64,000 bases of DNA, taken from an uncultured Alphaproteobacteria bacterium. Lineage in GTDB: Bacteria > Pseudomonadota > Alphaproteobacteria > UBA2966. The DNA lies in contig OY282368.1 of the NCBI GenBank assembly GCA_958295725.1, forward strand, positions 1,136,501 to 1,200,500. The letters are read 5' to 3'. Position 1 is the first letter of the stretch, and the number at the start of each line of letters is the position of its first letter. Of this stretch, positions 9,621 to 13,479 are shown piece by piece. A program made the position numbers and the translations under genes. Under the pieces are notes generated by a model. That model did no database searches, was not told where the DNA came from, and saw only the letters and a list, made by a program, of their open reading frames with translations.

Positions 9621-9656
9621 CCATCCCCGTTCGGGACATCCGAGAGAGCGGGGCCA
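9621..9656 (-). repeat. Conserved short motif associated with coiled-coil gene, copy A
   Basis: On the minus strand this reads ATGGCCCCGCT, a few variable bases, then CGGATGTCCCGAACGGG. The same arrangement, with the 17-base core identical, is at 36265-36301 beside the second small coiled-coil gene. Both copies could encode M-x-P-L-x-R-M-S-R-T-G. Here it lies about 40 bp upstream of the small gene; in the other copy it is immediately downstream. Its nature (repeat element end, remnant coding sequence, or regulatory site) is unclear. Confidence 0.5.
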
Positions 9657-9765
9657 TGCTCCATGCCGGACCCGCGGCCTGGCGAGCGCCGCGGGCCGGT
9701 TCGCGGCCGGTTGCGATGCCCGTTTCTTTGCCGGTAAGGTTCCGGCCGATAGGGAGGAAAGACGA

Positions 9766-11283
9766 ATGTCGAGGACCGTTCGCGGCTATGGTGCGACAAC
9801 CGCCCGCTCGCGCGGCTGGTTGCGTTACATGTATCGCAAGGCGACCACGCCGGACAACTGGGACAAGGACGGCCAGCCGCATCCGCATTGGGACGGGGTC
9901 TCGGGCGAGCCCCGGCGTTCCTGGCACCGCTTCGATCTTCAGGACTCGGCGATGCCCGTCGCCGTCATGGCCGACGTCACGCCGGCGTGGCGCGAGGTCT
10001 ACGGCGCTATCCTCGATGAGCTCGTCGCGCGCTTCACCGGGTACTGGGCGGCGAAGGACTGGCTCGACCAGATCGGCGACGACCCCCGGCGCGGGCAGTA
10101 TCCGGAGGAGTGGTACGAGACGCTGATCCCGTCGACGCTTCGCGGCAAGTACGACGTGCCCGGCTGGACCGCCAACGGCGTCGAGCCCTGGGGTCTCCAG
10201 ATGGATCCCATCGGCGCCGACGGCAATCTCTTCTTCCGCGGGTTCTTCCTCGTCAATCTGGGCCTGCATCTCTACGTCACCGGCGACGAGAAGTGGAACG
10301 AGCCGTTCGACGTGGTGCGCGACGGCGAGAACACGTTCGCGTGGACGCACTCCCGCATCGCGGATTTCCTGGCCCGTCAGTGGGCCGGCCGTCCCGAGGG
10401 CTGCCACTGCGAGAACACCAAGATATGGCCGTTGTGAATGTCCGCCGCGGGCCTCGGTCTGAGGCTCCACGACACCCTCTACGGCAGCGATTACAACCGC
10501 GTCTTCCAGAACTGGTGGGAGTACGCGAAGCGGCACTACGTCCCCATTCGCGGCGGCGAGGTCGTGGGCTCGATGACGATGTACTACGACCCGATTCTCG
10601 GCGTCCACATGCCGGGCGATCACGAACCTTTCCAGAAGTTCGGGATCGCGCAGTTGATCCAGGCCTCGCGGCCCGACGACGCGCGCGTTCTCGTGGAGGC
10701 CGCGCTCGACGGGCTCGGTTGGCGCGAGGGCGCCCCGATAACGACCCCCGGCGGTAACCCGCGCGAGGTGATCTACGGCATGATCTACGCCCGCGAGTAC
10801 GGCGACGAGGGGCTCTACGGCAGGCTGAAGGCCTACGCCGAGGAGCACTTCGGGCCGACTTGGGACGACGCCACCGGCGAATTCCACTGGGGCTTCGGGC
10901 TGAACGAACCCCATCCGAGGGGGCAGTTCAACGCTATCGCCGCCCTGGCCGAGACCATGACCGAGGGTGCCTGGGGGCGCCTGTTCCGGGAACCCAATCT
11001 GCGCAAGTTCATCGAACCCACGGTGACGGGCGTGGACTTTCCCAAGGTATGCCTGTCCCAGGCGGTCTGCGACGTCGACCGCCGGCGCCTGATCGTCGCC
11101 ACGGACGGGGGCGCTCCCGGCGCCGCGGGCGAACCCACCTCGTTCCGCGTTTCCGGCGTCCGCCCCGGCGATTGCGCCGTGACCGCCGACGGGGTCGCGT
11201 CGGACGACTGGCGCGCCGTCGACGATGGCATCGAGATATCGACCACGGTGGGCGAGCACACTTTCGTGGTGCAAACGCATTGA
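9766..11283 (+). CDS. Linalool dehydratase/isomerase-like protein, probable selenoprotein (Sec224)
   Basis: Two in-phase halves separated by one TGA (10435-10437) read together as a 505-residue member of the linalool dehydratase/isomerase (LDI) family. The half before the TGA ends GCHCENTKIWPL and the half after begins MSAAGLGLRLHD, which fit without a gap. LDI uses two catalytic cysteines nine residues apart (Cys171 and Cys180 in the Castellaniella enzyme); here Cys215 and the TGA at position 224 have that spacing, so TGA takes the place of the second catalytic Cys. Eighteen nucleotides after the TGA is a hairpin with loop GGTCT, as in E. coli fdhF. I therefore read TGA as selenocysteine. 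Start ATG at 9766 has AGGGAGGA seven bases upstream. LDI interconverts terpenoid alcohols and alkenes; the substrate here is unknown. It heads a catabolic run. The alternative is a nonsense mutation or two separate genes, made unlikely by the hairpin and the intact second half. Confidence 0.85.
10435..10437 (+). other. In-frame TGA, predicted selenocysteine codon
   Basis: The only interruption in a 506-codon frame. It is codon 224, nine codons after the cysteine codon of HCENT, matching the distance between the two active-site cysteines of LDI. Family members as I remember them have Cys at this place. The next codon happens to be ATG, so automated callers will split the gene here. Confidence 0.85.
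10449..10467 (+). promoter_or_regulatory. Candidate bacterial SECIS element
   Basis: Five Watson-Crick pairs GCCTC/GAGGC (10451-10455 with 10461-10465) close the five-base loop GGTCT (10456-10460). A G-U pair (10450-10466) and a G-C pair (10449-10467) extend the stem. The loop sequence and its distance of exactly 18 nt from the TGA equal those of the E. coli fdhF SECIS, whose loop G and U contact SelB. The bulged U of the fdhF stem is not present, and the lower stem is irregular, as is common in other bacterial SECIS elements. Confidence 0.82.
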
Positions 11284-11379
11284 TTCCCGGCGCGGTTCCG
11301 GGTTGACTGGCGCAGCCCGCGAATGGCGCACCCGCGTTCGCGCCGTTCGCGGGTGGGACCGATGATCGGGGAGGATCGC

Positions 11380-13479
11380 ATGACCGTCGCCTACGGCGAA
11401 TCGCCCTTGTTCACGTTTGCCCTGATCGCCGATTCGCACATGAATCCGGGTGACGAGAACTCCTCGCCGTTCGAGACCAACGCGATGGCGAACGGGCGTT
11501 CCCGCTACGCCATCGCGGAAATCAACCGGCTCAATCCCGACTTCGTCGTCCATATGGGCGACCTCGTGCATCCGGTGCCGGGCCACCCGACGTTCGGACG
11601 GGTCGCGGAAGATTTCAACAGGCTCTACGGGGGCGTCGAGGCGCCCCTGCGCATCACGCCGGGCAACCATGACTGCGGCGACAAGAAGATCTCCTGGATG
11701 CCGGCCGTACAGGTGAACGACGCCTTCCTGAAGACTTGCGAGGAGCTGTTCGGCCCGCACTACGGCTCCTTCGACCACAAGGGCATCCACTTCGTGCTGG
11801 TCAATTCGCCGGTCTTGAACTCCGGTCTCGACCTCGAGGCCGAGCAGCGGTCTTGGCTGGAGAGAGATCTGGCCGAGACCGCGCGCGACCGGATCTTCCT
11901 CTTCACGCACTATCCGCTATACGTCGCCGATCCGGACGAGGAGACCCACTACGACAACATCGACGAGCCGGCGCGGAGCTGGCTCCTGGACCTGATCGAG
12001 GAGCACCGGATCGAGGCGGTGTTCGCGGGCCATGTGCACAACTTCTTCTACAACCGCCGGGGGGCGACGGAACACTACGTCCTGCCGTCGGTCTCGTTCG
12101 TCCGCCAGGACTACGCGGAGTTCGCGCGCGCCCGGCCCGAGCCATCGGCGGAAGGCGGCCGCAACGACCTTCCCAAGCTCGGTTATTTCGCCGTCGAGGT
12201 CTACGAGAACGGCCACATCGCCCACAACGTCCGTACCCACGGCCGCGTTCTGGCCGAGGGCGAGAAGCTCCCGGAGACGCGTCCCGCCCTGCCGGCCGTC
12301 CACGCCCGCGACGACGCGCCGGCGTCGGTCGGCGTCCAGCTCCGCCATCCCTGGAGCGAGACGACGACGATTCCGCACAACTACGCGCTCGACGAATTCA
12401 TGCGCAAGCGCGTCCGCAACGACTATCCGCTGCTGGCCCTGTGGGAGATGGGCGTGCGGAAGGTCCGGACGCCCGTGGGCGACCTGACCGACGCGGCGTC
12501 GTTGCGGCGGATGCGCGATCTCAAGGCCGTCGGCCACGAGTTCACCGTGTTCGCCTATGGCGCGCCGGGGCCGAAGACCATCGACGCGCTCGCCAGGTGC
12601 CGGGACGCCTACGACGCCCTCGAATTCATCGTGCCGGAAGACGAGGCGGAGCAAGCCGTCGCGGCCATCCGCGAGATCAGGACGAGGACGGACGCGCCGG
12701 TCTATCTGTCGGCGCTCCACTCGCTGGCGCGGTCGGCCCACGAGGGCGGCACCTTCAAACACATGATATCGAGTGGCTTTCCCATCGAGGAACGCGAACA
12801 CGTGGCCCGGTTCGTGGACTCGGTCGGCGCCGCCGGGCTCATCGACGGCGTCGTGTTCCGGGTCGACCGCGGCGTGTCCGCTTGGTCGGGCATTGGCGAG
12901 GCGCGGGCGTTCGCGGCGGCCCATGGCAACCGGGCCATCGTCAACGTCCGCTTCGCGGCCGACGATATGCGGGGCGACCGGATGGACGACCTCGCGACGG
13001 CCTGCCGAGCCGCCGAGGCGACGGCCGCGGCGCTCGCGGCGGATCGCCTGACCGTGTTCCTGGACACCTTCGTCGATCAGGACCGCGGCTACTTCATGCG
13101 CAACGGCCTGATCGACCGCCTGTTCAACCCGCGCCTCGCCGCCCGCGCGGTCCGGCACGTCCATGGCGTCCTGAAGGTGGTCGGCGGTGAGATGACGGCG
13201 TTGGATGTCGCCGACGTCGCGGGCGGCCGGATGGCCATGCTGCGCGGGGCGGAGGAACGGCTCGGGCTGTTCCTGCTGTTGCCGGAGGGAGAGGGCGGCA
13301 TGGACGTGGGCGCCGCGATCGGCCGGCGCGTCTGTCACGCGGACACCGGTGCCGGCAACTGGGTCGACCTCGATACCGGCGAAATCGTCTCGTGCCGCTG
13401 GCGCAAGGAGGGCGACCGCGCGGCGATGGAGCCGGCCGTGACCTGCGCCGTCCCCTCCATGCTGATCGCGCATCGCTAG
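11380..13479 (+). CDS. Calcineurin-like metallophosphoesterase with C-terminal barrel-like domain
   Basis: A 699-residue protein starting at the ATG at 11380, preceded by GGGGAGG; an in-frame ATG at 11323 gives an arginine-rich extension without a good ribosome-binding site. Residues about 10-280 carry the binuclear metallophosphoesterase motifs: ADSH at 17-20, GDLVH at 60-64, GNHDC at 95-99, then FTHYP and GHVHN. The remaining 400 residues have alternating strand/helix character reminiscent of a TIM barrel (HLARF- and RVDRG-type segments) and I do not recognise them. No signal peptide, so probably cytoplasmic. It follows the LDI-like selenoprotein by 96 bp and precedes a thioesterase by 12 bp. 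It may hydrolyse a phosphate ester in the pathway; substrate unknown. Confidence 0.85.
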   Translation: MTVAYGESPLFTFALIADSHMNPGDENSSPFETNAMANGRSRYAIAEINRLNPDFVVHMGDLVHPVPGHPTFGRVAEDFNRLYGGVEAPLRITPGNHDCGDKKISWMPAVQVNDAFLKTCEELFGPHYGSFDHKGIHFVLVNSPVLNSGLDLEAEQRSWLERDLAETARDRIFLFTHYPLYVADPDEETHYDNIDEPARSWLLDLIEEHRIEAVFAGHVHNFFYNRRGATEHYVLPSVSFVRQDYAEFARARPEPSAEGGRNDLPKLGYFAVEVYENGHIAHNVRTHGRVLAEGEKLPETRPALPAVHARDDAPASVGVQLRHPWSETTTIPHNYALDEFMRKRVRNDYPLLALWEMGVRKVRTPVGDLTDAASLRRMRDLKAVGHEFTVFAYGAPGPKTIDALARCRDAYDALEFIVPEDEAEQAVAAIREIRTRTDAPVYLSALHSLARSAHEGGTFKHMISSGFPIEEREHVARFVDSVGAAGLIDGVVFRVDRGVSAWSGIGEARAFAAAHGNRAIVNVRFAADDMRGDRMDDLATACRAAEATAAALAADRLTVFLDTFVDQDRGYFMRNGLIDRLFNPRLAARAVRHVHGVLKVVGGEMTALDVADVAGGRMAMLRGAEERLGLFLLLPEGEGGMDVGAAIGRRVCHADTGAGNWVDLDTGEIVSCRWRKEGDRAAMEPAVTCAVPSMLIAHR

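Follow-up and report, generated by a model that had tools for sequence, protein, structure and literature searches.

The window (the whole stretch of 64,000 nucleotides that was analysed) carries a gene that, judged by sequence comparison, almost certainly encodes one unbroken enzyme with selenocysteine (Sec) in its active site, built on the fold of linalool dehydratase/isomerase (LDI). The complete explanation put forward here, in which an in-frame UGA is decoded as Sec224, the protein adopts the LDI fold, and the resulting selenol/thiol pair is kept reduced or cycled back to the reduced state, is in our view very probable. The first-pass annotation of this DNA had drawn attention to a reading frame broken by one TGA only, to a cysteine nine residues ahead of it, and to a hairpin GCCTC-GGTCT-GAGGC behind it, and all three observations were reproduced. 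The frame comprises 505 sense codons if the TGA is read as a residue (number 224), contains no other internal TGA, and is closed by a terminal TGA; Cys215 lies nine residues upstream; and the core of the hairpin occupies positions 10451-10465, with 18 nt from the TGA to the first loop base. Homology is continuous across the TGA, with the match to the Pfam model Ldi (PF18566) spanning residues 145-369 of the window protein. The features of the gene, together with the loci of its relatives, are collected in Table 1. The next gene, at window positions 11323-13479, encodes a protein of 718 residues whose N-terminal part is a calcineurin-like phosphoesterase domain; in the rest of that protein, no Pfam match was found.

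Table 1. Features of the window gene (window coordinates) and loci of related genes.
Feature	Location	Strand	Remarks
Predicted selenoprotein gene, LDI-fold family	9766..11283	+	505 residues, Sec224; Pfam Ldi 2.5e-13; full-length TGA and Cys homologues
Probable ribosome-binding site TAGGGAGGAA before ATG 9766	9750..9759	+	read from sequence
Cys215 codon, first of the catalytic pair	10408..10410	+	aligned to LDI Cys171; TGA in ~10 relatives
In-frame TGA, predicted Sec224	10435..10437	+	aligned to LDI Cys180; recurs in paralogues and relatives
Predicted bacterial SECIS hairpin	10450..10466	+	5' arm 10450-10455, loop GGTCT 10456-10460, 3' arm 10461-10466
Terminal TGA of the frame	11281..11283	+	
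Paralogues L020 and L021, two further predicted selenoprotein genes	G000:C1:472 kb and 2248 kb		PF18566; TGA at the same codon
Double-TGA loci	L037, L039, L041, L042, L043, L044, L045, L052, L054, L058, L060, L096		L045, Entotheonella; L052, L054, L058 and L060, Binatia order
Cys types with ~50-residue linker and CxCC (or CxxxCC) tail	L025, L026, L049, L066, L068, L073, L076, L077, L082, L084, L086, L095, L097-L099, L102, L104, L105, L107		

The PF18566 score of the window protein is 50.7 bits, against a curated cut-off of 26.1; among the NCBIfam models, none matching the window family was found. An AlphaFold2 model derived from an alignment of 75 proteins reached a mean pLDDT of 95.4, and every one of the best 27 PDB matches of this predicted structure was an LDI structure, with E as low as 1.1e-11 and TM as high as 0.75 of the target. 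On this model, the window protein would consist of the (alpha/alpha)6-barrel of LDI followed by a predicted C-terminal beta domain. When the family is aligned to LDI by profile (E 1.5e-9), Cys215 falls on Cys171 and Sec224 on Cys180 with no gaps, as the first reading of the sequence had proposed from the nine-residue spacing of the LDI catalytic pair, and an earlier single-sequence match agrees with this placement. This profile alignment covers LDI residues 112-334, with the active-site residues Asp39 and Tyr45 outside it. His129 of the LDI active site aligns to F160, in a column that holds Phe, Trp, Asp or Asn in all 75 aligned members and never His; because this histidine is absent, the linalool reaction is not to be assumed.

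Compared with the LDI of Castellaniella defragrans, itself a PF18566 protein, the window protein shares the barrel fold and two catalytic Cys positions nine apart, followed by Glu. It differs in that identity is ~17%, that its 505 residues (372 in LDI) include the extra C-terminal beta domain, and that the second catalytic Cys is predicted to be Sec, as the first would also be in some relatives. Since identity is this low and His129 is replaced, the label 'LDI' is best taken as one of ancestry and fold only, and the reaction may differ. A distant LDI relative, the linalool isomerase Lis of Thauera linaloolentis, also depends on a reductant (PMC4791888), but it is membrane-anchored through four N-terminal transmembrane helices and is not described as a selenoprotein.

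Searching the source genome with Pfam models returned three PF18566 genes, each with exactly one internal TGA. When read through, these three paralogues are collinear; the TGA falls on the same codon, in the motif [CV]HCENTKIWPx-U, and is followed in each by a hairpin with a GGTCT loop. TGA forms were also present in two more genomes of the source genus, and full-length Cys forms in two other genomes of the class. Scanning named genomes yielded 80 loci with family relatives, in Alphaproteobacteria, Gammaproteobacteria, Defluviicoccus, Entotheonella, SAR202 and other Dehalococcoidia, Acidimicrobiia, Binatia, a deltaproteobacterium, and others. All 80 loci have TGA, TGC or TGT where residue 224 aligns, so that the homologues, proposed earlier as a check on this position, carry Cys or TGA only; both LDI-fold cysteines are kept, columns 215 and 224 being invariant over 75 full-length proteins (U counted as C). 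The family is rare, with a full-length match in 4 of 385 genomes of the class, source genome included, and in 1 of 297 genomes of the phylum of genome G112, which is G112 itself. TGA-bearing full-length matches in both of these wide genome draws were limited to the source genome and G112.

In a rapidly built maximum-likelihood tree with 79 proteins, a clade of 20 tailed Cys proteins is split from a clade with 45 Cys-Sec, 10 Sec-Sec and four tailless Cys proteins. The states on this tree need a minimum of five changes, against a shuffled mean of 29.6; at least three changes fall on residue 224 and at least three on residue 215, gain and loss being indistinguishable on an unrooted tree. The recurrent neighbours of the genes vary by lineage and comprise DUF169, phosphotriesterase-like, arginine-deiminase-like and GST proteins, the acyl-CoA dehydrogenase N-terminal domain, and aminotransferases. 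A DUF169 protein is nearest downstream in L030, L031, L037, L039, L052, L054, L058 and L060, a phosphotriesterase-like neighbour occurs in nine other loci, and an arginine-deiminase-like one in 10 Acidimicrobiia loci. A search for a conserved neighbourhood that might indicate the substrate found no pathway or substrate pointer among the family loci.

The source genome (3.67 Mb, three contigs, listed completeness 100) contains selA, selB, selC and selD, the set of genes on which the first-pass annotation had made its proposal depend. They form one cluster, at most ~6 kb apart, of selB (417 bits), selA (561 bits), selD (289 bits) and the tRNA-Sec gene selC (75.1 bits, anticodon TCA), which adjoins selB at 1.87 Mb of contig C1. 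Within this cluster, selA overlaps or adjoins selB, and selD is adjacent to both; selD is of the Cys type and is fused to an NDH-like (pyridine nucleotide-disulphide oxidoreductase) domain, TIGR03169 (L009, 13348-15603). No internal TGA was found in the best formate dehydrogenase match of the source genome, and the usual reason for keeping the Sec machinery is therefore missing there. In the wider set, selB lies above the cut-off in 42 of the 49 genomes with TGA forms versus 10 of the 24 with Cys forms, and one of these ten, G112, also has a double-TGA gene. No convincing selB match was found in five of the 49 TGA genomes, while of two more, one yielded fragments and the other a match just under the cut-off; because those TGA genomes are draft assemblies, the missing selB may reflect incompleteness. 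The window UGA would thus be decoded as selenocysteine by the SelA, SelB, SelC and SelD of the same genome, with the downstream hairpin directing the decoding.

On the sequences compared, the support for this hairpin is comparative, not thermodynamic. Among the 1221 TGA trinucleotides of both window strands, that of the window gene is the single one with a 5-bp stem and loop GGTCT 10-17 nt behind it. The single-sequence stability of the hairpin stretch is ordinary (z -0.3 to -0.6), and RNAfold favours a competing register in two of the three segments folded around it. For the comparison, 56 TGA genes were set against 24 Cys genes, duplicates having been removed. All six pairs, from 13-29 to 18-24 (numbered from the TGA), are kept in 56 of 56 TGA genes, of which 55 have the loop GGTCT and one has GGTTT. 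The five core pairs together with this loop occur in none of the 24 Cys genes, and the five core pairs alone in a single Cys gene, which is without the loop. Pair 15-27 (same numbering) is C-G in 37 TGA genes, U-A in 10, G-C in eight and U-G in one. Among 34 distinct rows of the alignment, 100% of cells are paired and covariation exceeds that of all 500 shuffles and of all slid controls; alignment pair 18-30 is C-G in 23 of these rows, U-A in six and G-C in five. Between the window gene and its paralogue L020, one hairpin pair is changed on both sides, from C-G to G-C.

The hairpin also appears to leave its mark on the coding sequence. The codons CTC and GGT are invariant in all 56 TGA genes, and CTG in 55, whereas codon choice for the same Leu and Gly is free in the Cys genes. 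Furthermore, GLGL is followed by Arg, Gly or Ser in TGA genes but mostly by Gln or Lys in Cys genes, and because of this difference the protein sequence itself appears to be constrained by the hairpin. The SECIS element of E. coli formate dehydrogenase H (fdhF) has the loop GGUCU at a distance like that of the window hairpin, although the two proteins differ.

These comparisons also decide how the TGA is to be read. In favour of a genuine stop, or of a pseudogene interrupted through a mutation that breaks the frame or through a sequencing error, it can be said that the frame is formally interrupted and that the hairpin alone is not unusually stable; however, the same codon is found in three paralogues and dozens of genomes together with a selected hairpin, the sequence is conserved on both sides, and the column is otherwise Cys, which makes this explanation exceedingly improbable. 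A misread base in particular, a possibility that had been raised with the original proposal, is excluded by the recurrence of the codon and its hairpin in two paralogues and in dozens of unrelated genomes. The idea that UGA specifies tryptophan, or is leaky with no selenium involved, draws on nothing beyond the open frame and has a vanishingly small probability: TGA serves as an ordinary stop ending these genes, the homologous residue is Cys and not Trp, and selA-D and the SECIS are present. Sequencing error, pseudogene and tryptophan were accordingly ruled out as candidates on the grounds of recurrence, Cys homology and hairpin conservation. Decoding as selenocysteine in place of the second catalytic Cys is supported by the agreement of the Sec machinery, the Cys/TGA column and the alignment to LDI.

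In about ten distinct loci, from SAR202 and other Dehalococcoidia, Entotheonella, the Binatia order, and L096, both catalytic codons are TGA, and these loci probably encode double-Sec enzymes. Their genes share an extra hairpin, formed between both UGAs and just beyond the second, with the second UGA held in its loop. The mean energy of this stretch is -11.8 kcal/mol for eight distinct double-TGA sequences, versus -6.2 for Cys-Sec and -7.4 for Cys-Cys genes (Mann-Whitney p = 4e-5 and 0.003, respectively, by statistics that ignore relatedness), and three different stem sequences form the extra hairpin. Because of this lower energy and the three stem sequences, it is plausible that the extra hairpin is a SECIS for the first UGA, an assignment less sure than that of the main SECIS.

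A further thiol position lies at the C-terminus. Cys types have a median length of 554 residues against 501 in Sec types, ~50 residues more, and a C-terminal C-x(1-3)-CC motif is found in 19 of 24 Cys types versus none of the 55 Sec types. Tail and Sec state in these sequences are both confounded with phylogeny, because the tailed Cys forms make up a single clade. The tail of L106 reads PAAPPS-TGA-SCC-TGA (TGA at 9621-9623), where close relatives have PAAPPS-C-SCC. This tail TGA is common to six genomes of one Binatia-containing order (loci L106 and L124-L129), each of which has a hairpin GAGCGG-(3 to 5 nt)-CCGCTC or similar 10 nt further on, past the true stop; a tail selenocysteine is probable. 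The first-pass annotation had placed Sec at the second catalytic residue, which stands, but the family seems to go beyond that claim, with Sec also at the first catalytic position and in the tail. Sec at 215, at 224 and in the tail would thus replace three thiol positions of one family.

What such residues might do is suggested by the characterised enzymes. LDI is oxygen sensitive and wants a mild reductant (PMC6013536), and linalool isomerase is likewise reductant-dependent (PMC4791888). Because of these needs, of the vicinal-Cys tail that Cys types add, and of the Sec in one order's tail, we favour a scheme in which Sec224 and Cys215 would act in the active site as a selenol/thiol pair that contacts the substrate. 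Such a pair could close to a selenenylsulphide, and would hence have to be kept or cycled reduced. In the Cys types, the CxCC tail appears to act as an internal reductant, with which the Sec types would dispense; alternatively, this tail may bind metal instead of donating electrons.

Whether the selenol/thiol pair serves an oxygen-sensitive dehydratase/isomerase with maintenance or a true reductase are propositions of about equal probability. With plain LDI-type chemistry, an allylic alcohol would be dehydrated or isomerised by acid/base or covalent catalysis with no net redox, Sec making the site more acidic, more nucleophilic and more easily rescued from oxidation; we give this a probability somewhat below even. 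It is consistent with the retention of the fold, of both catalytic Cys positions and of the next Glu, with the proposal that the LDI cysteine protonates linalool or forms a thioterpene (PMC6013536), and with the contact of C179 to the hydroxyl (PMC12455561). However, the position of LDI His129 is never His in the family, and the CxCC tail and its Sec version would have no role except maintenance. A selenolate is, moreover, a poor general acid at neutral pH. A redox enzyme, which we hold to be no more and no less probable, would use the pair to reduce a substrate (e.g. by reductive dehalogenation, dehydroxylation or peroxide reduction), forming an Se-S bond at each turnover that is re-reduced by the tail or by thioredoxin. 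Such an enzyme would account for Sec at one or both members of the pair as well as in the tail, and for tails in Cys types only, and an analogy may be drawn to the redox tails of thioredoxin reductase, mercuric reductase and class I ribonucleotide reductase; yet no conserved electron-transfer partner was found beside the gene, and no characterised enzyme of this fold family works by redox chemistry. The CxCC tails also resemble soft-metal sites, and Sec binds mercury strongly, but a metal or organometal site (mercury, arsenic, copper) with the tail as delivery arm is improbable, the recurrent neighbours being without metal-resistance genes.

That the family represents a class of thiol/selenol redox enzymes built on the LDI barrel and not described before is a nearly even call, tilting slightly to the negative. 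Sec would here occupy any of three working thiols, namely the second catalytic one (as in the window gene), both catalytic ones (Chloroflexota, Entotheonella, Binatia), or the C-terminal CxCC tail, and the first UGA of the double-Sec genes would be served by a second hairpin whose loop contains the second UGA.

A 2026 review of prokaryotic selenoproteins recognises 119 families and subfamilies (PMC13188914), among which there is no LDI-type entry. The listed families have in common with the window family a UGA, a SECIS hairpin just downstream, selABCD and Cys homologues; they differ in being mostly thioredoxin-fold or oxidoreductase proteins, none with an Ldi domain. The statement made at the outset that no selenoprotein of the LDI family was known agrees with our search of the full-text literature (other than subscription journals and preprints), in which no described LDI-type selenoprotein was found. 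Groundwater genomes are named in the review as the source of further candidates that await validation, and an earlier computational sighting of the family among these is possible.

If the interpretation is correct, this family adds to the selenoproteins a case apart from the usual thioredoxin-like and metal-site redox proteins, with Sec placed on a fold whose characterised members perform cofactor-free carbon-oxygen bond chemistry. The natural Cys-Cys, Cys-Sec and Sec-Sec sites within one family would provide variants with which to address the disputed role of the two LDI cysteines (acid/base or covalent). Under the standard code, genes of this family should look truncated or broken, and their products would therefore escape annotation in bacteria from the sea and from sponges, for example SAR202, Entotheonella and Acidimicrobiia.
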